From assembly GCA_020055645.1 (NCBI GenBank), contig CM034546.1, positions 32,426,001 through 32,490,000 of the forward strand: 64,000 bases of DNA, given 5' to 3'. Below are positions 33,962 through 62,979 of the stretch, piece after piece (within the stretch, counting starts at the first letter, position 1; every line of letters begins with the position of its first letter). Both the position numbers and the translations under genes were made by a program. The notes beneath the pieces were generated by a model. The model was not told the DNA's origin and ran no database searches. It saw only the letters and a list, made by a program, of their open reading frames with translations. The stretch comes from Tomocerus qinae. Lineage: Eukaryota; Arthropoda; Collembola; Entomobryomorpha; Tomoceridae.

Positions 33962-34120
33962 GACGACCATCCAGGCTATACTATACACATACATTCAGCC
34001 CATCATCAATACCCAAACAATTAATCCCATTCCTGGTAAAAATGAATACATATTGATTGGTACGTAATAGATTAGTATTTGATGCAATTTAGTTTTATGT
34101 CGGCTTCGGCTAGCTGGAAC

Positions 34121-34562
34121 TTCGGGCTCGGGTAGGTGGACCTTCGGCTTTGGGCGGGTAGCTGGACCTTCGGCTTCGAGTAGCTGGACCTTCGGCTTCG
34201 AGTAGCTGGATCTTCGGCTTCGAGTAGCTGGATCTTCGGCTTCGAGTAGCTGGATCTTCGGCTTCGAGTAGCTGGACCTTCGGCTTCGAGTAGCTGGACC
34301 TTCGGCTTCGAGTAGCTGGACCTTCGGCTTCGAGTAGCTGGATCTTCGGCTTCGAGTAGCTGGATCTTCGGCTTCGAGTAGCTGGATCTTCGGCTTCGAG
34401 TAGCTGGATCTTCGGCTTCGAGTAGCTGGACCTTCGGCTTCGAGTAGCTGGATCTTCGGCTTCGAGTAGCTGGATCTTCGGCTTCGAGTAGCTGGACTTC
34501 GGCTTCGAGTAGCTGGACCTTTGGCTTTGAATAGCTGGACATTCGGCTTCGGGTAGCTGGAC
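34121..34562. repeat. 22-bp minisatellite, about 20 copies
   Basis: The unit is cttcggcttcgagtagctgg plus a(c/t). Because 22 is not a multiple of three and the unit has no stop on the minus strand, two minus frames stay open for 150-210 codons with a 22-residue period. The last base of the unit alternates C or T in blocks along the array. Confidence 0.9.
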
Positions 34563-35432
34563 TTTAGTCGGAACTCTTTATTACGCTCACACTCTTTTAT
34601 ACGAGGAAGGTGTAGTTGCAGTTCCACCTGAAACTTTGAACTTATCGCAGGAATTTAAAACAGAACACCTTGATTATTGTAACGGAGCGCCAATGAATCT
34701 AAAACTTTTAAAATCCAGCTGACCGGAGACACAAACAAACACATTGCATTTTTGATTTTCTTGTAAATTTTACATACTGCAGAATTGCAGCTCTGGTAAT
34801 TACTCTTGATTCTGGTGAACAAGTCAACGTAACAACTTGAGTGAAGTTGTCACCTCTTTGTTCATTTGGGAATTTCGGACATCAGTTTCCGATTCGATTT
34901 ATTTCTACATACAAACTGTGCTTGAAGAAGCTGGTATTTAACCATCAATTTTCAAATGTTTCATTTTTACTATCAAATCTACTATTGTGTTAAAATTAAA
35001 GAAATTATCTAGGGTTGAATCTAAGATATCGGATCTTGCCCATTTATTACTGACTCGGGTCTTTCTTTTTTACCTCAAAAAGTTACTCTGAAAATTTGAC
35101 AATCTATCTCTACTTCAAAGTAAAGCATTCGAAAGTTATCGTTGATCGTATACACATACAGAGATTTCCAGACAGACAGTGACAGATACAGCAACTATTC
35201 AAAGTAGTTATGCTTTGATTGAATAAGCTCGCTAAGTCTAATTGGACTTACAACAAAATCAAATATTCGGTTACGAGATTTTTAGTTGTTAGCACAACGT
35301 CTAACAGTCTAAGTCAGACGGCTAACAGATTATAAAAGAATTAAGAGAGAGACCGACAAAATTATAAATTTAAAAATAATTTAGCGATTATTTGTGATTT
35401 AATACCAAAATTTCAATTTTATCTTTTTAAAG

Positions 35433-43775: not shown

Positions 43776-46333
43776 ATGGAAACACGGCCTTTGAGGAAAG
43801 TCACTATCTATAAAGAACTGGAAAAATTAGCAATAATTATCCAACATGTTTTTGAACGAGGATGGATCACAGAGGCTGAGAGAAAAAATGTGGTAAGTAA
43901 AGCAAATTCAATCCAAAATAAGATTTTAATATCAAAAAATGTTAATATACAGAAGAAATTGGTATGAGATTGTGAATTATAATCATTATAATTTTATAGG
44001 AGGCGAGAAAAAATCTCAAGGACAAAAAGGTGGAAATATATGAACTGATAAAAAATTTAAAGGATTTCCAAAACGCTGCCAGGCTGTTATGTGCTATCAG
44101 GTGTATCAAAGAAGACGATGATACAGTTGATGGAAACACGGATACCAAGGGAGAAAGCCAAAGAAGCCAAGAAGAAAATATGCAAGAAAATTTTATATCA
44201 AAGTATTCGTCATTGTTGATTGATCAGGGGCTTATATCTCTCGAGGAAAATAAATTATTTGTAAGTCTCGCTTTTAAAATTGAAAATCAAAAAAAACAGA
44301 ATCAAAATTGCAGATGTAGTTAGTCTTAACATCTCATAATCGTTACATGAAAAATTATAATTTTGTTTATAATAATATTTGCAGTTGAGTACAAAAATGA
44401 AGAATAAAAGGTTTAAAACAGAAAAGGGCTGCAGAATGAGAAATGCGCCCATTCAAAATAATCGGAACCCACTGGAACAAAGTCCTGTAAGTTTTATATA
44501 GTATCTTAAAATTACTAACAATTCCCATAACATAATGGTTTCTATTTTTCATGTCTTAAAATGACAAAGAACCGTTGTTGTCGTATATATTGCAGCGTAC
44601 TCCAAAATAACAATTTGTCAACACATTTAACTTATAAACCTATCTTTGACTCCAATCATTAGAAAAATTATATTAATTGATGCAAAATGATTTTATGTAA
44701 CTAATTTAATGTATCAAATTTATAAATAAAGTATTGTAATTGCATTTTACAGGTAATCAGATGCCTATTTGGTTTCCTCAGTCTTAAGGACATTAAAATT
44801 TGTCGTGCAGTCAGCAAGGAATGGAGAAATATCGGAAATTCTTATCTGCGACTTCGATCAGCCATTAAATTTTGTAACTATCATCGTGTTTCTTCTAAGT
44901 TTTTGGAATTAATTGAAAGTGGTTCAAGTAGACAACCCTTCCATGCGTTTCGAATTTTCGGTTGGCGTCAATACCCTTGGTCTGATGTACAATTAACCGA
45001 ATTTTTTGACAGTCAGCAAGAAGGAATACGCGAATTACATCTAGAGCATTTATATTTGAACACGACGACTGGAAATAAAATTAGCACTCAAGACATTACT
45101 CCGTGGATTTCCAGAACGCCTATGGTCAAACTAGCGAACAACTACAATACCAAATTGATCATAAACCAATTGGACACGACGGAAACTCAAGAAGGGTTAA
45201 CAGTAATGAAAGTTCCATTGGAACTGTTAACGCATATCAAAGACATTTCCTTAAAATTGTGCTCTGTGCATCTTAAGGATGGACTGAAAATTTGTCCAGT
45301 CAATTTAGACTTGAATAGCTTAAAGTTCTACCAAGAAGGAAATTCAATACCCAACATTGTAATTAATGACATCATATGCTTTTCGAAAATTAAGACGCTT
45401 AAATTAAATGTGAACAGTCAATACACAAGAGGGTTAACAGGTGTAAGTTTGGATTTGCAAGGAAATGAAAAATTGGATTTGGAGGAGCTTACTTTATTAA
45501 AGGTGGCACTTTTGAACTGGGAAACCTGTGATTGGAAAGTACACAAATTAAACTTGTGCGGAATACCATTTGTGGAAAAGACAAGGATGGAAATAACCGA
45601 ATTTGTATTTCAAACGCGATTTTATGACGAAGAACCTTTTGATTTGTTTGCTCTACCAGATACAATTGAGAAACTGTCAATGAATAGTGACAATAATGTC
45701 ATATGTACTGGTCGTATAAATCTACCGAGACTGAAATTCCTGCATATTGACATCCGAGATAATCCTGCTATTATTTCTCACTTTAGACAATGCCCAGCCT
45801 TGATTGAAATGGTTGTAGAAGGTTCTAGTGATATGCAATTGCAGCTAAAACCGACGTGGATTCCTCAGAGTGTACGAATTCTTAAATTGGTTGACATGGC
45901 CTTAAATTCACAAGAAGGTCCCCAATTGTGTCTCAAAAAGCTCGTTTTAAAAAACTACTCCTTCAATTCAACCAAAGAAATGATGACGAATAGTATTCAA
46001 ATTGATTGTTTAGTTTTAATTTGCCAACCTTGTTGGTTCCTCAAAGATATCTATCAAGTGAATGAGCTAGGAGTGTGTCATTCAAGTCAAACTGATGAAG
46101 TCGCATTTGTGGATTTCTTCCAACATGTAAACTCCCTCAATTCCTGCCAAAAAATTTACGTTGGTCCATTTAACAGGGACAATCCATTTAAATCCAGCCC
46201 TATGGCACGGTATGTAGACAAACAAAATAGATTTTACGTCTTTGAAAATCGAAAAGGTAAATCTATAAGGGAAGAAGAATTTAATATTGAAAGTAGTTTT
46301 CCGAATGCTTACCAATACCGTATTTTCCAATAG
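43776..46333 (+). CDS. CARD-like / F-box / leucine-rich repeat protein
   Basis: Exons 43776-43892, 44000-44260, 44385-44486 and 44753-46333, all in phase 0, give 686 residues. Residues about 10-75 resemble a CARD (YKELEKLAIIIQHVFERGWI then LKDFQNAARLLCAI), with the intron after residue 39 at the same place and phase as in the CARD of the two NB-ARC genes. A partial second unit (SLLIDQGLISLEENKLF) follows. The last exon opens with an F-box (VIRCLFGFLSLKDIKICRAV, then SKEWRNIG). The rest is LRR-like. LLNWETCDWKVHKLNL and IPFVEKTRM align with VLNWNEARWNIQSLKL and IPFVEKTKM of the 57933-62979 protein. An SCF ubiquitin-ligase substrate adaptor is the likely biochemical role; an immune or death-signalling role is inference. 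Confidence 0.75.
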
Positions 46334-47804: not shown

Positions 47805-50800
47805 CTATTTCTTCGACTGATACTTCTTTGTCAACTCCGTCAACTTTGGTGATGGATATGGATATGGATCCAAAACAACGAGTTCGTCTGGCTGAAAGTG
47901 ATCCAACAATTTCTTCGTTTGGTTAAAGGAGAAGTCGAATATAACGAGTTTGTCCACCCTCCTCACTCCACCAACAACTTTTGTGTGACGAAGAGGACGA
48001 TTTTTAATTTTGATGTGGGTGACACTTTTGGGCATTTGATCTACATTCACTTCTTCCATTTGATAGAAGTGTATGTGCGTCAGGTTGGCAGATCGAAAAA
48101 GAGATAAGAAGGAAGAACCGGACATCGCGGAGAGTGTCAAATATTTCAGATTTGGAAGGTCAATTGGTTCATTACAAACAACTTCTGCTCTAACTAAATC
48201 CAGTTTTTCAATTGTTTTTGGTAAACAAGAAGTATCCAAAGAAGAAAATCGAAAGTCCATCTCTTTGACTCTCATTTTCGTTTCCTCCATTAACGGAATA
48301 TACAGCAATATTAATCTTTGAATATTCCATTTGGCTACTCTCCAGTTTAACACTTTTACTTTATCTAAGAGAATATATTCTATGGAGATTTCGTCACTCA
48401 ATTCGATAGACATGTTATTGCCCCACGAACCCTCGAGGGTCAGTTTATTGATTTTGCTGAAGTCACAGAATTCGTTGACATTTGCTTCGTCCAATGCCTG
48501 TCCATTTCTGTTGAATGAGACAGATTGTAATTCCAATTCCTCTGGGGACAGTCGATCGAAAGATGAAAGATCTAATGAGCATCCCCGCAATTCAATTTTA
48601 CTTGATTCTCCTCCCAATTCCAATTCGAATGCAGACCTATCAGACTTCTTTATCAGAGCATAATTCGACCCTATCAGATCTGAATGTACTAATCGAATCA
48701 ATATACCAACAGAATCTGGGCAATAAATTACCTCGAAAATTTTTGTAGCTTCTTGTATTTCTTCCGTTTCATTTTGGTTTTCCATTCGGTATAGAATAGT
48801 CATAAAATATATTTGAAACAGTTCTCTGGACAATTCTTCTTCCAATCCCAATATTTCCATTTCCATTGAATCAAATGAATAATTTCTCCTTTCTTCCATT
48901 TCATCCTCATCCAATTCTATAAGAATTTTCAAACTTTCTTTGAAATTCTCATTCTTGGCCAAACAAATTCCATAATTAAACTCTGCCGTTTTTGTTTTCA
49001 ATTCTTCTGCAATTATTTTAGCTAATTGAACCGATTCTTTAAATCTAGTTTGTCTTAACACGTCACGTAGAATTTTAATTACGTGTGCTTCATTTCCTAT
49101 TTGTTGTCCTACTGTCAATGCTTCGTCAAACTTCCCCAAACTCAAACTGAGATAAAATAAAATTTTGCCGATCTTATTTCCCATTGCATTTTCTTTCAAG
49201 TCCAACAACTCTAAATCGTTTTCAACGTTTGTTTTAATGGTATCAACTGTCCTCAAGTATTTTAACATTGTTCCTAATATTTTTATCATAGCATTGTCTC
49301 CGGTCTCAATTCTCTCCTCCAGATGATGAAGCTCTTTCAGAATGTCCAAGCATTTCTCATTCTGCCCATTTTTATGCAGACAAACTGCGTAATTAAATTT
49401 TGTTGTTTTTGTCTTTAACTCTCTATCAATAAATTTAGCCAACTGAACTGATTCTTCAAATCTCTCTTCTACAACCAATTTCTTTAATTGTCTTTGGTCC
49501 AGTAACTCTGCTCTGACTTTAGGAAATTGTTTTTGCATTTCTTCATCCGCGTATTTGGTAAAAGGAATTAATTTGTATTCAATGAATCTCAAGCAGCCGA
49601 GAATCTTCTTCAGCGTCTCCTTCTCAGTCTTCCGTCCGTTGTGACGAATTACTTGCTGCAGAAGTCGATGGATACTCAATAAATGCATCTCATATGTTAT
49701 TTCGTTTTTACGTGTTAATTTATTTATTATCCCATCTTTATACGGAAATTCTGACACTTTTCTTGTCTTTGTTATTAAAGCAAACTTTTCCAGCAAATTT
49801 ATCGCTTCTTCTATTCCACTTGGTGGGTCGATATTTAAAATTTTCGATAGAAATAGCGATCGAATGTCATCTGGTCGAATATATCCAAATATCATTAACA
49901 TTTCGTATGCCAATTTCCCATTTTCTTGTTCAACGATCAAATCCAATGAAATTCGGATACATTCATTGATTGTCTTTTCATAGTCATCGAATGGTTTATC
50001 CAGAACATTTTCTAAATCTGTCACAGAAGTTTTTTCAATGTAATTTTGTAGATTAATTTTTTCATTGTTTAGCGCTGCAACAGTTAATTGAAGAGCCAGA
50101 GGGAGATTTCCCATCAATTGGCATATTTTCTTCAGTTGTGAATCAGTTCGCTCTATTGATTTATTCAAATTCTTGCTCAAGAAATCCAGACTTTCTTCTT
50201 CACTGAAATTGTCCAGTTCCAGATCAGATATTTTCCCAAAGCCAGTCTCAGTCCCCCATTCACGACTTCGTGACGTAATGATGCAGTAAAAGCATTCTTG
50301 ATTTTTAGGAAGGACATTTATAATTCCGTCTTTTCCTTTGTAATTTTCTGCATTGTCATAAATCCAGAGGCATTTAAATCCAGATAAAGCATCAAAGCAT
50401 TTCTTCGAAAATTCTTGAACTTTGATAAATTCTTTTCTGTTTGGTATTTCTAAATCCATGGCCAATCTATCGAACGAATTAAGGAGACTGCCTTCCCCGC
50501 AGTCTATCCAAATGATATGATCATATTGCTTTTCGTAAGTGTGTGCATACCATTTAGCCATGAGGGTTTTGCCAACTCCGCCCATACCAGAATATTTCGA
50601 CGCATCTGGGGACTCGCAAATAACGACCATTCGTTGCTCGTCTTTAGAAATTCGGTCTTGTAACTCTTCAGTTAAGAATTTCTTTCCGCATTTTCTTTTG
50701 AGAAGAGATTTTATTAGCAGCTTCTCCTCTGGCCACCATTTTTGATTTATTTTTGGATGAAAGGGTGGATATTTAGTTTCCAGCTGAAATAAATCACTTT

Positions 50801-53279
50801 CTGAAGTAATAAGAGACTGACTACTGTTGATTACTTGGAAAGCTTGTGCACAATCTCCGTTGTTTGTCTTCAGTAGTACATCTAAAAATAAATTTCTGAT
50901 TTTTCGACAATTCTTCTTTAGCAGTACAGACAAGAGCTTTTCGTTTTTTCTAGTTGAAGTAACCTCAGCATTCTGTAACCGATAAATAAATATTAAAAGA
51001 AATAAATAATTAAAAAATTGTACTGACATTCGACATATTTTTTGTATTTTACAATACATTGTGATCGTCAGTCGTATTTTATTGTTTGTTATACCAACAA
51101 GCCTTTGTAATTTGTAGTAATAATAAAATATCCATGTAAACTTACAATATCTTCGATTTCAATTGCTGAAATTATGTTCCACTGAATCAAATAGGCCACC
51201 ACTTCACTTAAGTTAGTCAGATTTTCGGTAAAAAAATTAACATTTTCTTTGAGATTGTTGGTGTTCATATTTTTATCTGCTACGTGACTATCCTAATAAT
51301 TTGTACGTAAAACGGTTAGTACAATAAATTAGCCAAAGTTATGGGGTCAAATTACTTCAATACAAAAATGTAATGTTGTACCATTTCTTTCATATCGAAT
51401 CCCGAAATAATATTTTGCCGTCCATTGTTCCGCCCAGCCATTGGCAAGTTAATCAAGTGTTCATCTATTAAACATATAAAATTTTAATTGAAAATTCGTT
51501 ATAATCAACAATTTTAGTAAGACAAATATTCCAAATGCACAAACAAATATATCCAAACAAATATAGTTGAGTAACTAAAAATCTACAAAATATATAACAC
51601 TTGCCATTTTCAATTACAGTTGATGTTCCACTGCCAGTGCCAAGATCTTTGATAATTTCCATTATGCCCTGCATTAGATTTTTGTTTTCTTGCTGAACGA
51701 CATTAACCAGAATTTCTTCTACCTTTTGTCCCATCCCTTCTACTTTTTCTACTATTCCTTCTACTTGTTTTCTTACCCCGACCACTTTCTCCCTTACCCC
51801 CTTAACTTCCTCCCCTACCCCCTCCACTTTATCCCCTACCCCCTTCACTTCCTCCCCTACCCCTTCTACTTTCTCTCCTACCCCATCCACTTTCTCCCCT
51901 AATCCCTTCACTTCCTCCCCTACCCCCTCAACTTTCTCTCCTACTCCCTCCACTTTATCTCCTACTCCCTTCACTTCCTCTCCTACTCCCTCCACTTTCT
52001 CTCCCACTCCCTCCACTTTCTCCCCTACTCCCTTCACTTCCTCCCCAACCCCCTCGACTTTTCCCCCTACCCCCTCCACTTTCTCTCCTACCCCCTCCAC
52101 TTTCTCCCCTACTCCCTTCACTTCCTCCCCAACCCCCTCGACTTTTCCCCTTATCCCCTCCACTTTCTCTCCTACTCCCTCCACTTTCTCTCCTACTCCC
52201 TCTACTTTCTCTCCTACTCCCTCCACTTTCTCTCCTACTCCCTCCACTTTCTCTCCTACTCCCTCCACTTTCTCTCCTACCCCCTCCACTTTCTCTCCTA
52301 CCCCCTCCACTTTCTCTCTTACTCCACCCACTTTCTCCCCTACCCCTTCTACCTTTTCCTTGACGTTTTCAACATCTGCTTTTGTAGAAATATCTTTCTG
52401 TTCTAAAGTCTTTACAATTTCTTGCACTCGCCTTGCAACGCCTTCATTATCAAATGTCAATTTGTACTCGTATTGATTGGAAATGTTTTCAACTGTCTTC
52501 CATTTCCCTTTGCTTTCTCTAGTTTTGTAAAACTCGTCGAATGGCCAAAGTTGTTTATACCCGTAAATTCCAGCACCGCTTCCTTTCGTCAATTCTTTAT
52601 AAATAATGTTTTCATTTTCATTTATAAGATATCCAGAAGTCTCAAATAAATCAGTCGTATTTATTTTCTTGTATTTTCCGTCATCACAGTTTTTAAATAG
52701 CACCGTCCTTCCTTTGCAAACACCTTTTCTGCTTGAGTCTCCAAACAAAATGGCATTGAAAATGAAATTCTGTGACTTGTGGAACTCTTTGGCAATGAAA
52801 TCATCGTATTCCTCAATGACATAATTTATTACTCGTTCGGTCGCATCTTCGGCCAACTTGGCCATTGCTCTCCTCCCATCCCCATCCTCATCACCATCTG
52901 CTTTAACATTTGAAAATTGATATTCGAACATCCGGAAGATTTTCACAGCAACGTCAACGAATATTTTCCTAGCCTCTTTCTTTTTCTGAGGGAGACATCT
53001 ATAAATTTTTTTTCGGTCGTCCCTGTCGAGTTTATTGTACACCTTTTGGAGAGCTTCTTCTAAAGGTTTTACCACAGTTCTTCCAAAAGGTATTAAGGCC
53101 CCTACGGCACTAGGCACTGCTTTGCTTGCTTTTTGGATAGCACCCGGTGTTGCTGTAGTTTGTCCCCCAGGATCGAAATCAGCAGACACATTTGAAAGAG
53201 TAGTCAAATAACTAGAAAAATATTTGGCGAATTCCTCCTCCAGTACCTCCAGGTCTTTTTCAGTAGTTGCATCTGGCAT
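47805..53279 (-). CDS. NLR-like protein 1: novel domain, heptads, CARD-like, NB-ARC, LRR
   Basis: Coding exons 53279-51605, 51464-51382, 51292-51146 and 50972-47805 join in phases 1, 0, 0 to 1690 residues. Exon 1 uses a GC donor (AAAATG/GCAAGT). Residues 1-325 are an unrecognised, mostly helical domain. About 30 heptads of EKVEGVG type follow (to about 545), with V at a/d spacing, a likely coiled coil. A CARD-like fold spans about 595-690 ([14 protein letters not shown] ... [17 protein letters not shown]). NB-ARC has P-loop GMGGVGKT (764-771), [20 protein letters not shown] and GNLPLAL, then a winged-helix region ([14 protein letters not shown]). Helical [18 protein letters not shown] repeats and LRR-like C-terminus ([14 protein letters not shown]) follow. 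No WD40 repeats, so it is not a simple Apaf-1/Dark. The C-terminus is about 45 residues shorter than in its paralogue through a frameshift. Confidence 0.8.
51603..51604 (-). promoter_or_regulatory. Non-canonical GC splice donor
   Basis: Exon 1 ends AAAATG followed by GCAAGT, the usual form of a GC-AG intron donor. No GT nearby keeps the phase. The paralogue has GCGAGT at the equivalent place. Confidence 0.65.
51720..52360 (-). repeat. 21-bp coding minisatellite (heptad repeats)
   Basis: Within exon 1 of NLR-like gene 1, about 30 copies of a 21-bp unit encode EKVEGVG and the variants [21 protein letters not shown]. The plus strand is pyrimidine-rich (ctcctactccctccactttc). The paralogue has only three or four units at 61985-62070. 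Confidence 0.9.
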
Positions 53280-53287
53280 TGCAGGTT

Positions 53288-53600
53288 TCTAGGAAATATT
53301 ATATTATTGAGTCAAAATTAATGAAAAACAGCGAGTAAAAGGACTTGTTTTACTAGACCGAAAAGACATTAAATTAAAATGTACCCGAACAGTTTCCAGT
53401 CTTTAAGAAATAGGAATTCGGTTACATGCGGGCAACCATATACGTCACCTGTCGAAAACATTAAGACAGAGACGACCTATCAGAAATGAATGATTATTAT
53501 TTTATTTGATCTTTTTAAAACTCACCTTCCGTAATCGGTCTTCGTTCTCAAATAATTGAAAGCCTTTTACGAGTAACAAGATATCTCGGAGCAGTTTTTC
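53288..53600 (-). other. 5'-UTR exon and intron of NLR-like gene 1
   Basis: A donor (GGAAG/GTGAG, exon end 53526) and an acceptor (atatttcctag, exon start 53288) frame a 237-bp intron just upstream of the ATG. The sequence matches that upstream of NLR-like gene 2 (exon end 63986). The intron carries part of a foldback family (about 53338-53465). Confidence 0.6.
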
Positions 53601-54187
53601 GTAAACAATAAAATTTGCAAAAAAATTGCATAATTTAAGTACAGGGTAGGAAAAAATATTATTTTACCCACATTTATATTTGAATTGTTTTGCCATTCCC
53701 TTGGAGAAATATTAAAAAACATTATACCCATTGCCATTTCCATTGCTTCGTTCAGTCAACCATATTCAAGTTCAAGCCACCCGACGGGACGAGCTAATAG
53801 AATCGCAGTCTGTCAGTCCTTTCGCTTTAAACGCATTGAATTTGAATGAACTGAGAAATACTAATGGCAGTATGCCTAATAAAAATTTTGCGGTTCTTCG
53901 CAATTTTTAGACCGTTTTAGACTCATTTTCGTCAAAAATGCTAAGATTTTCGCATAAATTTAAGATATCTATATGAAATCTTGGCCTCCCCCCGAAACCC
54001 AGTTTTGTATACGTTCAGGCTCAGAAGCTCATATGCCAAAACCTTTAATACAGACAAAACTTGATGTATATCCAAAAAAATTTACATAAATATTTGTTCA
54101 TATCGATTGGCTTTTCATTTTACTGATTGACTGGATACAATTCAGACTTCAGACAATACCTCACTGAAGGGCTAATATAAGCAATTC

Positions 54188-54468
54188 GATCCATCGAAAA
54201 ACAGAGGGAGTAGGTTTTTTTGTCAGGCGTCCCGACAGCCAAACTAAAATGAAACCGATGATTAGAATTTTCGGCTTTTACGTATTTGTCTTACCTGATA
54301 AATATTATACGGGTCTTACAGGTGACATACTTGGTTGCCCGGATGCCAACTGAGTTCCATTGAAAATTTACCGGGTAAGAGAAATACCTAAAAACCAAAA
54401 ACTCTAATCGGATTTTAGTTTGGCTGTCGGAAAAAATAACCTACCCCCTCTGTTTTTCGATCCAGGAA
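54188..54468. mobile_element. Foldback element
   Basis: Arms share atcgaaaaacagaggg(a/g)gtagg, cgacagccaaactaaaat and a (tt)acgtatttgtcttacc-type block in inverted orientation. The spacer is short, so most of the element pairs with itself. Confidence 0.8.
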
Positions 54469-54759
54469 AGATATAAATGCAATGATACAATATTAGTACT
54501 TTGTGTTGACCTAATAGTGCAAATAAATAAAAATCGCCCTAAGGTCAAATAATTTTGAAATAAACGCAGCCAAACGTCTTTAGAAAATAATGGCAATTTT
54601 GAATTTATAGCCTTCAAAAATCATTTTCTCAGACTGCATTCGTATTTCACCTCTGTCTACATCGAAAAACCCCATTGAAATACTGAAAACTAACAAATCC
54701 TAACAAGGCAAACACCTATGCAGAACTGGGTTTCGGGGGGCTAACATTTCATATAAATC

Positions 54760-55206
54760 ACGGAAAAACGGAGGATGAAAGGGCCTTTTTTTCTAGACCC
54801 GAAAGTCAAAGTAAAATGTAGCCGAAGGTTGGAAGACATAATATTATACAGTTTACAGTTATCAAGGAGTAGGACTCCGGTAACATGCGGGTAACCATAT
54901 TATGTGTAAGACCATTTATATATGGTCCAATTTGCTTACAGAATTTAGTCGCTGTACTCATGCATGGCTAGGGCGACTAAATTCTGAAGGCTTAACCGAC
55001 CCCATTTAAAAATGGATTTACACATATACGTCACCTGTTTAATACATAACGGGCAATAGACATGAAAAACCGAATTAAAAAATTGTAAAATTACTACCGG
55101 AGACATACTCCTTGATAACTGTAGGTCATGTCCCCCAACCTTCGGCTACATTTTACTTTGACTTTCGGGTCTAGAAAAAAAGACCTTTCAACCTTTTTTT
55201 TCCGTG
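54760..55206. mobile_element. Foldback element with an inner cruciform
   Basis: Outer arms read ttttttctagacccgaaagt and caaagtaaaatgtagccgaa, with exact reverse complements on the right. An inner pair cagaatttagtcgc / gcgactaaattctg lies around 54950-54985. It belongs to the same family as 63036-63310. Confidence 0.85.
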
Positions 55207-55219
55207 GTATATATATATC

Positions 55220-55380
55220 TTAAATATATATTCGCCCGTAACGAGAAAATGGGGTAAAAATTGCAAAGAATCGCGCAGAGCGAGAAATTGCTATTTTGAG
55301 AAGAAAAACCTTTTATCTTGGATTTCGGGGGCGGGCGGCGCGAGCCCGTAAAGCCCATCCCTCAATACATCTATGTCCTA
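55220..55380. repeat. Fragment of a MITE-like element with self-complementary core
   Basis: Contains tcgcgcagagcgaga and a GC-rich gggggcgggcggcgcgagcccg shoulder, similar in layout to the MITE copies A and B and to 41330-41420 (tcgcgcgaagcgagac). Ends were not resolved. Confidence 0.35.
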
Positions 55381-57173
55381 AGGTAAATTTGTCTTCATTA
55401 GGGCAGTCAAAGTAGAAATAATATTAAAGTTCTTCGTCACTCTAATTTGGGCGAGCTTTCTGATATGGCTTGTGGTGGTAAACTACGGATTGACATATTC
55501 CAATAAAAATAAATAAGTAAAATTCTGGTGTTAATAGGGGAGTGGTGCACATTATTTTCTCCCCCCGTATGTATTTTTCATAATTTTCAAATTTGTTTTC
55601 ATAGTTACTAAACTTAGTTACGAGATATCTTGTTGTTCCTAACAGGCTTTCAATTATATTTAACTTTAACTTTTCAAATGTGTTGGGTAGACATGCAAAG
55701 ATGCAAATGGCGTGTGGGTGGAGGGGTGAATCCCAAAACACTGAGACTCTCATGTCGTCACATTTCCATGATATCTAGTTAAATACAAATAAAAATAATT
55801 ATTAAGTTGTAAAATAAATAGGTTAAATGGTTAAACTTAAATTGCAGGCAACGAATGACGAGGAAGGGTACACTAATCCCGTTTCTTCAATTTAATTTTG
55901 AGAAAATGACTAATGAATGAAGAGTGCAATTGTAGGAATGAGGAATAATAAAAAACTTTATAAACCTGGTCATTTATCTCCAAAGTTTTCAAAGTTGTTT
56001 GAGAACGCCGGATTAACTGCAATAACAATTTTGGAAAACTTTCACACCTTTTTTATTTTACGTAAAGTGTTGAAAATGAGATGACATCGAGAATTTAAAA
56101 ATCTTCGTTCAACCCTGTTAATTGTTTGTGAAAATTTTGTAAATTAGAAGAATCGAGCACATGTTACAATTTACACCATATGATTCAGAGATGAATCACC
56201 CGGTCGATCATAAGAGGGAAAAATACAAGATACAAACATACTAACATGTTAATATTATACAATATTATTCGATTGTACAGCTAGCTTGGAAATAGAATTA
56301 GAAAAATAAATTTAAACAACGACATTCAACATTATCACATAGATCTAAACATTACACCATTTTTTGTCATTTCAAGGCCTGGATTGTGTATTTATTGTCC
56401 GTGCGAAAATAATTTTATTTAATTTTAACCAGGAATCAGGAACCTTTTTAATCGGATTTAGAAAATAAATTTGCCTCCAGTTTAAAAGCACTAAAAACTA
56501 TATGGTGTATGAAACCCCTATGCCATTAATCACTAATTCAGTCCATATCGTTATCAGTTTATCGCTTTCTAAATTAAAGCGTAAGCGGATTTCTGACTGC
56601 ACATTTAAAAACTAAACACTGATTCTAAATTGGAACGATATTTGGAACGCTTGTGTTATTATTTTATTATTATTAAATTGTTGATTTTAGGCGCAGAAAT
56701 GACATTTAGTTTTAAGTTGCTACTGTTGCCAATTTTTGCCTTTGTCTGCTGCCGGTCTTAAAAACAAAATGCAGTGCAGGAATATAGGTCAAATTGGCAA
56801 AAGCAAAAAACCTTAAAAATTAACCCCTGTGGATAAATTGGCAAATGACATTTTTGATCGTTAGGAGAATTTGGCAAAAAGTATGTACGGATTCTTTCGA
56901 TTGTGGCCAGTTATTGTCCTCTGATTAATAATAAGACTACAGAAATAGAATTGGCAAGTTTTTAAATAGTTTATTCTCTGAAAATATATTAGAATGCAAA
57001 TGAAAATATTATATACAAATGTATTATGGAAACTTTATTCAGAAATTGTTTTCAGAAGAAACTGAAATGAGTGAAGATGAATTTGGAAGATATAAGATAA
57101 GAATTAAAATTGCTTCAGTTTGGTCCACTCTTTGAACAGATTTTGTAACAATTTAGTAATTTTGGCGGGAGAA

Positions 57174-57270
57174 TTATATTTCATGAACTTGTTCGACAGT
57201 TTTTATGTCTTCGGCGGGTTTTAACAATAAAGTCGATTGCAATCTTTCAATTGCTGCCAATAATTGTATT
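57174..57270 (-). pseudogene. Possible 3'-terminal coding exon, copy 1
   Basis: After an acceptor (atacaaaaccag), a phase-2 exon encodes QLLAAIERLQ then TLLLKPAEDIKTVEQVHEI and a stop. No upstream exon was found. A degraded second copy lies at 57526-57622, which supports former coding function. Family unknown. Confidence 0.35.
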
Positions 57271-57525
57271 CTGGTTTTGTATATGAGAAAATGCGATTAC
57301 GACGCCAGTGCGAGTGTATTTAGTTATATGGATGAAAATGAAATAAGCTTGTATGAATTACGATAAATTTCATGTATTTTATTACCATATTTAGAAATTA
57401 ATTGCGAAGATATAGAAGGATAGAGATGAAAAAGAGAAAGATGTAAGCCATCGACTGGTCTTTATAAAAAAATATTTATTTAACACGACATTTGCCTGAA
57501 ATTTGTCTTTATGGCGGAGGAATCC

Positions 57526-57622
57526 CTATTTCAGGACCACGTCTACAAATTTGATGTCTTCGGCGGGTGTTGGCAATAAGAGTGGTTTAGTACTGTCCTT
57601 CGATTGCTGCTAATAATTTATT
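57526..57622 (-). pseudogene. Possible 3'-terminal coding exon, degraded copy 2
   Basis: Encodes LLAAIEG, then after a frameshift PLLLPTPAEDIKFVD and a stop, parallel to 57174-57270. The shared LLAAIE and PAEDIK blocks with the same stop position suggest tandem duplication of one exon. Confidence 0.35.
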
Positions 57623-57932
57623 GATTTTTTTTAAAAATGGCGTAGCGACGCGAAGATAAAATGGTTCAATTTATAGTTCATTTAATTTTCAAAGAACATA
57701 AAATTTTGCTAATCATTAAAATACAGATTTTTAGTATAAAATGTTACAAATGATTATTAAATTATTTTATTTTATGGTCATTTAAAATTTTGTAAATTAA
57801 ATTTAGGAGGATAATGGGACTTGAATAAAATAGGCAGACCAAAAGTAACCACAAAATTACTACATCAAGAAGATGAAAAGATATCTCCATGATCCAATGT
57901 CTCAACTCAAATGACAATTTATTGGAACTATG

Positions 57933-60900
57933 TTAATACAATTTCATTAACTCCATAAACTCTTTCCCCTCCATTCCCCTCCCCCTTCCTCCCTCCCAAA
58001 AATAATAATCTGCTTTTCTGTCGACGTGGCTGGAGAGAACCGAAAAATCTTCTCCGCACCAACGCCAATCTATTTCTCCGACTGCAATTCTCTTTATTTC
58101 TCTCTTCGTCAACTCAATATACTCTTTTGGTGTAAATGGATGAGACTCAACAACGAGTTCGTCTGTCTGAAAGTGACCCAACAATTCCTCCACTTTTTTA
58201 AAAGAAAAGCTGCGTAGAATGAGTTTGTCCACTCTCCTCACTCCACCAACAACTATCGTCCCACAGATTTTGATGTGGGTGAGGCTTTTGGGTATTTGAT
58301 CTAAATTCACTTCTTTCATAATATAATAGAAGTGTATGTGTGTGAGGTTGGCAGATCGGAAAGAAGACAAGAGGGAAGAATCGGACATCCCTCTCAGTGT
58401 CAAATATTTCAGATTTGGAAGGGCAATTAGATCATCACAAACAACTTCGGCTGTATCTAAATACAGTTTTTTTATTGTTGGAGGAAGACAAGAAACGTCC
58501 AAAGAAGAATAACCAAAGTTCATCTCTTTGATGTTCATTTTCGTCTTTTCCACAAATGGAATCTGCGTCAATTTTAAGCTTTGAATATTCCATCTGGCCT
58601 CATTCCAGTTCAACACTTTCACTTTATTTAACCAAAGATATTCCATGGAGATTTCGTCACTCAACTCGATAGACATTCCCGAGAGTTGCAATTTATTGAT
58701 TTTGTGGAAGTCACAGAATTCGTTGAGATTCGCCTCCTCCACTTCCCGTCCATTTCTATTGAATGAGACATATTTTAACTCCAATTCCTCTGGAGACAGT
58801 CGATCGAAAGATGAAAGATCCAATGAACATGCCCACAAGTCAATTTTACTTGATTCTCCTTCCAATTCTAATTTAATTGTGGATCTATCATAACATTCCT
58901 TTACCAGAGAATAATTGGACTTTATGAGATCAGAATGAACTAATCCGATCAAAGTGCCAAGTGAATCTGTGGAAGGCAGGACCTCGAATTTTCGCCTACT
59001 TTCCAGAAATTCTTCAATGTTTTCTCTGCTGTCCATTTTCCAATAAATAATCAACAAATGTCCCCAAATCAGATCTCTCGACAATTCTTCATTCAATCCC
59101 AACATCCCCATCTCAACGTCACCTTCAGAGTAATTTTTCGTTTCCTCCATTTCTTCCTCCTCCAATTTCTTCAGAATATCCACACTTACAATTAACTGTT
59201 CATTTCTAGCCAGGCAAATTGCGAGGTTAAATTTTGTTGCTTTAGTTTTCAACTCGTCGGCAATTATCTTTGCTAAATGTACCGATTCTTTAAATCGTCT
59301 TTGCCTTAGCATTCCACCCAGAACTTTAATTACGTGGCTCTCATCTGCCATCTTTATACCAATTTTCAACGCTTCCTCAATCTTTCTCATACCCAAATAT
59401 AGATAAAATATCGGATCTCCAATTTCCTTTTTGGTGGGTTCTTCTTTCAAGTCCATCAACTCCAAATCTATTTCGACATTTATTCGTATTTCGCCAACTG
59501 TTTTCAAATATTCTAACATCTTTCCTAACGTTTTTGCCATTTCCCCTTTAATTGGATCTATTCCTGTTTCAAGATTTAGTTCCTTCAGAATATCCAAACA
59601 TTCCTCTTCCTGTCCATTCTTATGCAGACAAATTGCATGATTGAATTTTGTAGTTTTAGTCTTCAACTCTCTATCAATAAATCTCGCCAACTGAACCGAC
59701 TCTTCGAATCTCTCTTCTTCAATCAATTTCCTCAATTGCCATTGATCGAGTAACTCTGCTTTGACTTTTGGAAATTCTTTTCTTAGATCTTCATCAGCGT
59801 ATTTGGTGAAAGGAATTAATTTGTAGTCGATGAATCCCTCGCAGCCGAGAATCTTCCTCAGCGTCTCCTTTTCAGTCTCTTGTCCGTTATAACGAATTAC
59901 TTGCTGTAGAAGTCGATGGACACTCAACGTAATCTTGATTTCAGTGCCAATCTGCACTTTCTTTTTGGCGACAAGAGAATATTTCTTTAATATTTTGATT
60001 GCTCTTCTCAACTTTTCCTCGTTATCATAATTTAATACTTTCATGAAGAATTCGACTTCTACGTCATCTGGTCCAATGTATCCAAAGATTAACAACATTT
60101 CGTTGGCTCCTTTACCGCAATTTTCCTTTAATATCAATTCTAAAGCAATCTCTACATTTTTATTGATTGTCCTTTCATAGGCATCAAATTCAACATTAAT
60201 GACTTTTTCAAATTTATTCTTCTCAAGGTAACTTTTTAAACTTATGTTTCCTCCATTCAGAGCAGCGACAGCCAACTGAAGAGCCAAAGGAAGATTTCCC
60301 AATTGACGACACAAATCTTTGAGTAAATGATCCGGTCGCTCTATTGATTCAAGTAAAGTAGATTTTAGGAATTTCAGGCCTTCTTCTCCACTGAAAATGT
60401 CCAATTCAAGATCAGATATTTTCCCGAATCCAATCTTCTCCGTTCCCCATTCACGACTTCTGGACGTAATGATACAATAAAAGGTTTTTTCGTCTTTAGG
60501 AAGGACATTTATAATTCCATCTACCCCTTTGTAATTTTCTGCATTATCATAAATCCAGAGGCATCTAAATCCTCTCAACGAATCAAAACATTTTATCGAA
60601 AAATCTTGAACTTTAACTAATTCTTTTCTGTTTGGTATTTCCAAATCTCTGGCCAGACTTTCAAAAGAGCTGAGTAAACTGCCTTCCCCGCAGTCTATCC
60701 AGAAGATGTGATCATATTTTTGTTGATAAGTGAGTGCGTACCATTTAGCAGTGAGAGTTTTGCCTAATCCTCCCATCCCAGAAAATTTGGATGCAGCTGG
60801 GGACTCGCAAATAACGACCATTCGATTCTCGTCTTTTAAAATTCGGTCTTGTAACACATCAATTACAAGCTTCTCTCCGAATTTTCTTTCGAGAAGGGAT

Positions 60901-62979
60901 TTTATTACCAACTTCTTCTCTGGCCACCACTTTTGATTGATTTTCGGGTGGAAGAGAAGATATTTAGTTTCCGTTAGACGTAAATAATTTTTTGATGGAA
61001 TAAGACAATGCACATTGTTGATTGCTTGAAAAGCTCGTATACATCGTCCATTTCTTCTCTGCAATAGTACATCTAAAAATAAACTGATTTTCCAATTATC
61101 CTTCTCTTGGAGTATAGACAAAAGCTTCGAAGTTTTTGTAGTTGTAGTAATTTCAGCATTCTGTAACCGATAAATAAATATTTAAAGAAACATTATGTAG
61201 TGACATATGACATATTTTATATTTTACAAGACATTGTGATCGTCAGTCTTGTTTTTTAAAATCACATGTCTTGTAATTTGTGATAGTGATAATAAAATAT
61301 CCATGTAAACTTACAATGTCTTCGATTTCGGTTAGGGAAATAATGTCACGCTGAATCAAATACTCCACCACTTCATTTAGGTTTGTCAGATTTTTGATAA
61401 AGAAATCAATATTTTCCTTGAGGTTGGGGTTCATATTTTTGTTTGCTACTTGACTATCCTAATAATTTGTACAGAGTAGAGTAAGTGGTTAAACAAAATA
61501 AATTAGCTAAAGTTATGGTGTCAAATTACTTTAATTAAGATAATGCAATATTTTACCATTTTCTTCATATGGATTGTCGAAATGTTTTGTTTGCCAATGT
61601 TAGGCGAAGTCGTCGGCAAGTTGGTAAAGTTTTCACCTATAAATTGATAACATTTAATTTACAGATTATTTATGAGCAAAAATATGGATTATCAGTCTAC
61701 AGAAGACCATATTAAATATAAGTATGATATCCAATTCGTAGAACAAATATAAACAAGGGAGTAAGGAAATATTGTAACATTTTTGTTAGAGACGAAAAAG
61801 TTAAACTTTTCAATTGGTTTAAATATATTTAAATAAAAATGAATAACTAAAGAAAAAAATAAAAAAAGACTCGCCATTTTCAAATGGAATTGGTTTTCCA
61901 CTACTCAGACTAAGGGCATCTTTGATAGCTTCGATGCCTAGCATTACATTTTTGTTTCCTTGCTCAACCACATTTACAAGTGTTTGAGCACCTTCTTTCA
62001 ACTTTTCCACTTTCTCTTTTATTCCCTTCACTTTCTCTCCTACCCCTTCTACCTTTTCCTTGACGTTTTCAACATCTGCTTTTGTAGAAATATCTTTCTG
62101 TTCTAAAGTCTTTACAATTTCTTGCACTCGCCTTGCAACGCCTTCATTATCAAATGTCAATTTGTACTCGTATTGATTGGAAATGTTCTCAACTGTCTTC
62201 CATTTTCCTTTGCTTTCTCTAGTTTTGTAAAACTCGTCGAATGGCCAAAGTTTTTTATACCCGTAAATTCCAGCACCGCTTCCTGTTTTCAATTCTTTAT
62301 GAATAATATTTCCATTTTCATTTACAAGATATCCAGAAGTCTCAAATAAATCAGTCGTATTTATTTTCTTGTATTTTCCATCATCACAGTTTTTAAATAG
62401 CACCGTCCTTCCTTTGCAGACGACCTTCCTTCTTGAGTCCCCAAACAAAATGGCATTGAAAATAAAATCTTGCGACTTGTGGAACTCTTTGGCAATGAAA
62501 TCATCGTATTCCTCAATGACATAATTTATTACTCGTTCGGTCGCATCTTCGGCCAACTTGGCCATTGCTCTCCTTCCATCTCCATCCTCATCACCATCTG
62601 CTTTAACATTTGAAAATTGGTATTCGAACATCCGAAAGATTTTCACAGCAACGTCAACGAATATTTTCCTAGCCTCTTTCTTTTTCTGAGGGAGACATCT
62701 ATAAATTTTTTTTCGGTCGTCCCTGTCGAGTTTATTGTACACTTTTTGGAGAGCTTCTTCTAAAGGTTTTACAACAGTTCTTCCAAAAGGTATTAAGGCC
62801 CCTACGGCACTAGGTACAGCTTTGCTTGCTTTTTGGATAGTACCCGGTGTGGCTGTTGTTTGTCCCCCAGGTTCGAAATCAGCAGATACATTTGAAAGAG
62901 TCGTCAAATAACTAGAAAAATATTTGGCGAATTCCTCCTCCAGTACCTCCAGGTCTTTTTCAGTAGTTGCATCTGGCAT
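57933..62979 (-). CDS. NLR-like protein 2: novel domain, CARD-like, NB-ARC, LRR
   Basis: Coding exons 62979-61875, 61636-61557, 61458-61315 and 61160-57933 join in phases 1, 0, 0 to 1518 residues, the same layout as gene 1 including a GC donor (AAAATG/GCGAGT). Residues 1-320 are almost identical to gene 1, but only three or four EKVEGVG-like heptads follow. The CARD-like segment (NLTNLNEVVEYLIQ ... FLDVLLQRRNGRCIRAF) spans the intron at residue 443. NB-ARC shows GMGGLGKT (571-578), [20 protein letters not shown] and GNLPLALQL, with winged-helix [14 protein letters not shown]. Helical repeats such as [14 protein letters not shown] follow. The LRR region ([25 protein letters not shown]) runs to an intact tail DRKADYYFWEGG. 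It could be a cytosolic sensor that oligomerises on ATP binding; ligand and partners are unknown. Confidence 0.82.

Follow-up and report, generated by a model that had tools for sequence, protein, structure and literature searches.

What are two neighbouring genes that join a CARD to an NB-ARC domain and leucine-rich repeats (LRRs) doing in the genome of a springtail? Accounts of arthropod immunity do not, to our knowledge, usually include a diversified set of intracellular NLRs, and the question is posed by a 64-kb stretch of Tomocerus qinae DNA (assembly GCA_020055645.1, contig CM034546.1, positions 32,426,001 to 32,490,000), called here "the window", whose own numbering is used for all window positions. 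Its two genes, A and B, both on the minus strand, probably belong to a large family of cytosolic NLR-like (STAND) receptors, expanded in this lineage, that would signal through a CARD. An earlier note, made from the letters of the window alone, had presented them as a tandem pair. That is half of the matter: the two neighbouring genes are real, but they are not isolated, being 2 of at least 108 related loci.

Two genes and their domains

In A and in B a single frame runs through the splice sites; as read from these sites, each gene would be spliced from four exons, to give proteins of 1690 and 1518 amino acids (aa), respectively. The order of parts is common to both: an N-terminal module, then a coiled coil and a linker exon, a CARD interrupted by an intron, NB-ARC, a winged helix, helical repeats, and LRR/FNIP-like repeats. 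Exon 1 of gene A (51605..53279) starts with the ATG at 53279, encodes the N-terminal module (residues 1 to about 300) and a heptad coiled coil, and ends in phase 1 at a GC donor. Splice-site reading places a linker exon of 83 nucleotides (nt) at 51382..51464 and a 147-nt exon 3 at 51146..51292, the latter with the first half of the CARD (51146-51268); exon 4 (47805..50972), one open reading frame (ORF) up to the stop codon, continues with the second half of the CARD (50829..50972), NB-ARC (Pfam-matched part, 50055..50597), the winged helix, predicted helical repeats of paired, TPR-like helices (48684..49667), and LRR/FNIP-like repeats (47871..48623) that are delimited by alignments, profile and strand spacing and have a C-terminal tail shorter than that of most aligned members. 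Gene B repeats the arrangement, with exon 1 at 61875..62979 (96% identical to A in aa sequence, its coiled coil short), an 80-nt exon 2 at 61557..61636, a 144-nt exon 3 with the first half of the CARD at 61315..61458, and exon 4 at 57933..61160, in which the second half of the CARD is followed by NB-ARC (Pfam-matched part, 60222..60788), winged helix, helical repeats, an LRR domain placed by Pfam and alignments (57936..58877, with an FNIP repeat at 58266-58349), and the stop. The heptads of A are encoded by a 21-bp minisatellite of 27.3 copies (51774..52346), which reads as a V(E/K)GVGE(K/E) array; B has 2.0 copies only (62008-62049).

Intron 1 is GC-AG in both genes, and introns 2 and 3 are GT-AG. 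Intron lengths vary freely (140, 89 and 173 nt in A; 238, 98 and 154 nt in B) while exons 2 and 3 each differ between A and B by exactly 3 nt, as is expected of coding exons. (The GC donors read GCAAGT at 51605/51604 in A and GCGAGT at 61875/61874 in B; three loci elsewhere in the genome, L034, L035 and L038, have GT at the same junction.)

The CARD-like fold that the earlier note had placed at residues 595-690 has held up as a predicted domain: the spliced sequences match Pfam CARD (PF00619; cut-off 23.9) with 6.4e-9 and 36.2 bits in A, at about residues 595-683, and with 7.9e-12 and 45.5 bits in B, and a CARD profile compared with the PDB finds CARD8 (8.1e-9), MDA5, RAIDD, Apaf-1, NOD1 and NLRC4. 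How general is it? Among 27 regions (L014 to L038 and the two window genes), 23 have a nucleotide-binding (NB) ORF that fits the P-loop pattern. A CARD first-half exon lies upstream in 15 of these 23 (about 3 kb upstream of the P-loop in L017 and L025) and was not found in eight (L016, L018, L021, L027, L029, L032, L034 and L038); the second CARD half is present in the NB ORF of L018, L021, L029 and L032. Halves were joined in all of these 15 but L023, which nearly duplicates L020, and the degenerate L035; each of the 13 CARDs spliced in this way matches PF00619 at E ≤ 0.01. (A further CARD locus, at 88.54 Mb of C1, the contig that holds the window, was considered as a CARD-death adaptor and rejected, only its CARD being confirmed.)

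NB-ARC also exceeds its Pfam cut-off (23.5) in A (8.1e-12, 45.4 bits) and in B (2.2e-8, 34.1 bits), and motifs that we take to be the P-loop, Walker B, sensor, GLPL-like and winged-helix His motifs are present in both and invariant in 11 aligned members. The predicted fold from NB-ARC to winged helix is nearest to that of Apaf-1, with a match to NRC1 as well. The NB-ARC motifs, winged helix, helical repeats and LRRs previously called in both genes are confirmed as domains by profile or prediction.

The C-terminus bears directly on what kind of protein this is. WD40 repeats, which would have gone against the earlier reading, were looked for and not found, either in A and B at E ≤ 1 or at E ≤ 0.05 in eight C-termini (A, B, an F-box ORF described below, and five paralogues). 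Instead there is FNIP, presumably an LRR-type repeat, at E ≤ 0.05 in seven of the same eight C-termini; in the Pfam scan of A and B it scores 25.2 bits in B (cut-off 21), with none listed for A. Eleven LxL strands, picked by eye, follow one another at 18-23 residues, with one gap of 31.

Are A and B merely duplicates of the Apaf-1/Dark component of the apoptosome, and not receptors at all? They have CARD and NB-ARC in common, and in the same order, with Apaf-1, Dark and CED-4, and the predicted fold just mentioned is most like Apaf-1. Yet the genome has a separate candidate for that part: at C1:106.75 Mb (L014) the top NB-ARC match of the genome, an exon with 2.5e-19, is accompanied by WD40 ORFs. 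A and B, with no WD40 listed, have a helical solenoid and LRR/FNIP-type repeats and a large copy number, and the database proteins nearest to them are of the NB-ARC/DUF7779/TPR kind. We regard an Apaf-1/Dark duplication as very improbable.

Does exon 1 belong to the same genes?

The large N-terminal domain that the earlier note could not recognize is still without a match. Pfam offers nothing informative besides coiled-coil hits, the PDB has no profile match at E ≤ 10, and of the 7998 candidates scored in a protein collection none is homologous at E ≤ 1; this collection is apparently mainly microbial, so its null does not speak on other arthropods. Exon 1 of A also hits DUF1664, Laminin, Tropomyosin and others, in or next to the heptads; these hits are read as coiled-coil artefacts.

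Within its own genome the exon-1 module is matched 22 times, at 17 loci after manual merging. At seven of these an NB-ARC match lies on the same strand, 1.1-2.8 kb off on the 3' side; the locus at 69.18 Mb is on a GTPase gene; that at 7.77 Mb is about 2.4 kb from an LRR match; that at 35.86 Mb is broken by stops, with the nearest NB-ARC match 14 kb away; and the remaining seven have no NB-ARC or LRR within 20 kb among the matches listed, nearby GTPase genes not having been searched for. These last seven could be taken to say that exon 1 forms a gene of its own, or serves as an alternative first exon, and that A and B proper start at the Met that lies in frame in the CARD exon, as CARD-only members appear to. 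Three further facts point the same way: 1) the CARD first half opens with Met at the same place in 12 of 13 aligned CARDs (L017 excepted), A (at 51268) and B included; 2) exon 1 reads on beyond its donor to a stop of its own (51468 in A, 61819 in B); 3) the DNA similarity of A and B extends about 60 nt into intron 1 (in A, down to 51545). Set against them are the seven loci at which NB-ARC follows exon 1 closely, and the junctions themselves. The joining of N-terminal domain to CARD by exon phase, claimed earlier for the two copies, appears sound and recurs at three more loci: in all five NB-ARC loci read (A, B, L034, L035 and L038) the junction is in phase 1 and in frame, with usable donor and acceptor. 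At L034 and L038 exon 1 leads straight into the NB exon, no CARD being found between them, and the L034 NB ORF has no Met ahead of the linker. Residues past the donor are, moreover, dissimilar by eye in A and B, while exons 2 and 3 are alike, with in-frame indels only. A separate exon-1 gene is on these grounds improbable; with so many aligned CARDs opening with Met there, the CARD exon might serve as an alternative start.

The module also occurs outside the receptors. L037, at C1:69.18 Mb, has it in one 1618-aa ORF (L037:2090-6943, minus strand) with a URGCP-type GTPase domain (PF25683, 4.8e-66), and a model built without L037 still finds it there with E 8e-63; this giant GTPase is not an NB-ARC protein, and no CARD or LRR is listed for it. 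The module is thus shared and not a private extension of A and B. Exon 1 would seem to encode an exchangeable module that a minority of family members have at the N-terminus, with a function that may lie in oligomerization or output. (A long N-terminal region of L016, in the same ORF as its NB-ARC, looks exon-1-like by eye; models of the other members miss it, the hhalign probability is 3.5%, and it is not counted as homologous.)

A large family and the possible sources of its parts

The search for copies beyond the window, which the earlier note had proposed, is what yields the at least 108 relatives of A. Merging 126 NB-ARC matches with 108 matches to the NB region of A gives at least 167 loci, a lower bound that covers NB-ARC genes of all kinds (Apaf-1-like, HEPN-type and TPR-type included), at least 108 of them close relatives of A. 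At least 157 of the loci are on C1, and at least 69 of these lie within 27.9-38.9 Mb, the 11 Mb around the window. (One relative, L008/L021, has an NB-ARC match of 53.4 bits in the genome search that is absent from the hmmscan of its ORF; P-loop, alignment and tree place it in the family.)

The family is under purifying selection: the mean ratio of nonsynonymous to synonymous divergence (dN/dS; pairs with dS < 1.2) is 0.20 for NB (33 of 45 pairs), 0.38 for the helical repeats (44 of 45) and 0.56 for the LRR (36 of 45). Judged from the alignments, NB-ARC is the most conserved part and the predicted exposed LRR positions are the most variable. Mean identity among nine members, with strands picked by eye, is 0.84 at buried strand positions and 0.41 at exposed ones, compared with 0.70 at other hydrophobic and 0.60 at other non-hydrophobic positions (exposed against other non-hydrophobic, p=0.0025; buried against other hydrophobic, p=0.017). 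The corresponding values of pN/pS are 0.17 for buried and 0.70 for exposed positions, 0.62 for the other LRR positions and 0.30 for NB. Between A and B, dS is uneven: 0.15 in exon 1 and 0.33 in the LRR, against 1.06 in NB and 0.95 in the helical repeats. The two genes are 94% identical over a tract of 1079 bp that opens about 105 nt before the ATG and stops just within the heptads. Together these point to gene conversion or exchange of segments.

Where did the NB-ARC come from? By its sequence it appears nearest to the DUF7779/TPR class, and not to NACHT, which Pfam does not find in A or B at E ≤ 1; of 14 other ORFs scanned, three (L020, L019 and L033) have a NACHT match, each short of the cut-off. 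DUF7779 itself is weak in B (0.017, under cut-off), and the NCBIfam family FxSxx_TPR (NF040586) matches the NB part only, with 1.5e-35 and 123 bits in A and 112.1 bits in B, not reaching its cut-off of 300. The bacterial FxSxx_TPR proteins and their NB-ARC-DUF7779-TPR relatives are closest to A and B in NB-ARC and winged helix; they differ in having no CARD and no LRR, and classical TPRs after NB-ARC. Compared as a profile with the PDB, the NB-to-LRR alignment (A6) finds nine chains, which are headed by designed repeat proteins and include no Apaf-1, CED-4 or plant NLR; the PADLOC anti-phage models give no family at E ≤ 0.01 for A, B, exon 1 or L016.

One might imagine from this that bacteria supplied the NB-ARC core by horizontal transfer and that CARD and LRR were gained afterwards. 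Besides the FxSxx_TPR match, below cut-off as it is, the names of the nearest database proteins could be cited: of the five that are named among 28, four are bacterial (Lachnospiraceae, Streptomyces, Vibrio, Aphanothece) and one is fungal (Dactylonectria). But no organism is named for the remaining 23, and eukaryotes seem to be sparse in the collection. The NB-ARC tree also speaks against it. Its 49 rows comprise 25 from the springtail's own genome and 24 of the 28 database proteins (four were dropped because the P-loop pattern missed them), L014 not being included, and it has several long branches, that of L026 among them. Here the CARD family forms a single clade (95/86), with L026, a HEPN-type NB-ARC gene of the same genome, as its neighbour (100/99); the TPR-type L027/L028 and one metagenome protein are next out (98/88). 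With such neighbours a transfer, if any, need not be recent, and the transfer itself we consider doubtful. (The HEPN_DZIP3-like N-terminus of L026 scores 24.5 bits, under its cut-off of 27; the gene is at L026:2757-6107, minus strand, C1:68.06 Mb.)

The LRR has relatives of a different kind, one of them in the window. The ORF at 44726..46333, on the plus strand, has an F-box match of 19.6 bits, under the cut-off of 20.5, and shares the C-terminal LRR of A and B (E 6e-25 with A, at 30% identity over 270 aa; 7e-24 in a second comparison). A genome search with this LRR, in which the best 150 of 583 candidates were scored, gives at least 151 matches: long NB-type ORFs, and, on several chromosomes, many ORFs of about 480-534 aa that are taken to be F-box-LRR genes like that of the window. 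An LRR shared with an F-box ORF may recognize host proteins for turnover, and this lends something to the idea that A, B and their relatives are STAND proteins with a non-immune role (control of transposons or viral RNA in the germline, self/non-self recognition, scaffolding), expanded by tandem duplication alone; neutral tandem duplication could also give the concentration of 69 of 157 C1 loci in one 11-Mb region. The idea sits less well with a CARD and a CARD-caspase candidate in one genome, with a variable predicted exposed LRR face beside a conserved NB-ARC, and with an exon-1 module that is also found on a URGCP-type GTPase, a class that includes interferon-inducible vertebrate proteins. 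A non-immune role is unlikely, if deserving of some weight.

Two other features may be recorded here. In the window, at 33995-34654 on the minus strand, an ORF is made up of degenerate PATRSRRSSYSKPK-type repeats, which run in overlapping frames. Some 4 Mb away, at C1:36670928-36672268 in this 140-Mb contig, there is a full-length COX1 match with 12 TGA codons read through, which marks a mitochondrial insertion or an assembly join. This COX1 reads in the invertebrate mitochondrial code, as suits an arthropod, and 114 Chitin_bind_4 matches in the genome agree with that.

A candidate receptor pathway

How would receptors of this kind work? The LRR, perhaps together with the helical solenoid, would bind a pathogen molecule or a modified host protein; NB-ARC would then exchange ADP for ATP; the proteins would assemble into a wheel; and the clustered CARDs would recruit a CARD-bearing caspase, leading to cell-death or inflammatory signalling. 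Exon 1 and its coiled coil may add a second oligomerizing or output function to the receptors that carry them. Ligand, nucleotide switching, assembly, caspase recruitment and immune role are all inferred. A candidate caspase is at hand: the genome has 38 caspase matches, and L039, at C4:17.648-17.650 Mb, combines CARD exons, joined by eye (4e-9), with a caspase exon (1.2e-24). (The CARD of L039 is also split by an intron, at a place similar to that in the NLR-like genes.)

A number of observations weigh against reading A and B as CARD-signalling receptors. The CARD is confirmed in a sample of the family, and its pairing with a caspase is suggested by their co-occurrence in the genome only. Exposed LRR sites, whose positions depend on strands chosen by eye, have a pN/pS (0.70; bootstrap 0.50-1.00) that is neither above 1 nor clearly different from the rest of the LRR (0.62; 0.53-0.74), so that diversifying selection is not demonstrated. 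The LRR has no PDB sequence match at E ≤ 1, and the AlphaFold2 model is confident, within the LRR, for about the last 150 residues only and poor between residues 662 and 823; for exon 1, predicted from A and B only, the confidence (pLDDT) is as low as 43.8. Finally, there are signs of decay. Ten of 108 scored relatives have internal stops, the NB ORFs of L025 and L032 are without all or part of the LRR, and L035 has an altered P-loop, GMCGVGKT, along with its degenerate CARD. Gene A is without the last 50 or so residues of a tail that is whole in six of nine other aligned members (B, L021, L029, L034, L035 and L038); the DNA past its stop is still tail-like, in another frame.

Comparison with known systems places A and B between established types. 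Vertebrate NLRs such as NOD1 and NLRC4, both matched by the CARD profile, have the same order of CARD, nucleotide-binding module and LRR, but A and B have NB-ARC in place of NACHT, an irregular FNIP-like LRR, and the orphan exon-1 module. If an animal NLR is strictly a NACHT-LRR protein, A and B are not NLRs; if it is broadly a sensor with NB and LRR, they are. Plant NB-ARC-LRR resistance proteins such as NRC1 and NRC2 differ in another way: A and B have a CARD and, between NB-ARC and LRR, a helical solenoid, and Pfam finds no CC, TIR or RPW8 in their N-termini (for exon 1 of A, among the 25 of 26 families shown). Among arthropods there is a precedent of a sort in shrimp LvNLRC, which the available part of its description presents as a NACHT-LRR protein studied as a sensor of viral nucleic acid (PMC12370184); that text gives it a NACHT domain and, as far as it goes, mentions no CARD. 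The earlier note's statement that arthropods lack NLRs apart from Apaf-1/Dark was, on this evidence, too strong. A search of open-licence papers finds none that pairs NB-ARC with springtail or Collembola, and among the titles and abstract openings listed in broader searches none describes such a family; NACHT and NLR go unmentioned in the main text, as far as available, of a springtail genome paper (PMC5644144).

A wider account, on which judgement could fall evenly to either side, is that an arthropod lineage, separately from the NACHT-NLRs of vertebrates and the R genes of plants, put together a CARD-NB-ARC-LRR repertoire of plant scale (at least 108 related loci, with CARD in a sample), from an NB-ARC of the TPR (DUF7779) class, an animal CARD and an LRR common to F-box proteins; a new N-terminal module, shared with a URGCP/VLIG-like GTPase, would have been homogenized between neighbouring copies and shuffled among some of the receptors as an alternative output domain. 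If this is true, the springtail family is a further independent invention of the NB-LRR receptor, with hints at the origin of two of its pieces, the TPR-class NB-ARC and the F-box LRR. The exon-1 module, found on NB-ARC receptors and on a giant GTPase, would be a candidate for a new immune output domain. And an arthropod pathway resembling the inflammasome, with a CARD/NB-ARC/LRR family at one end and a candidate CARD-caspase at the other, would become directly testable.

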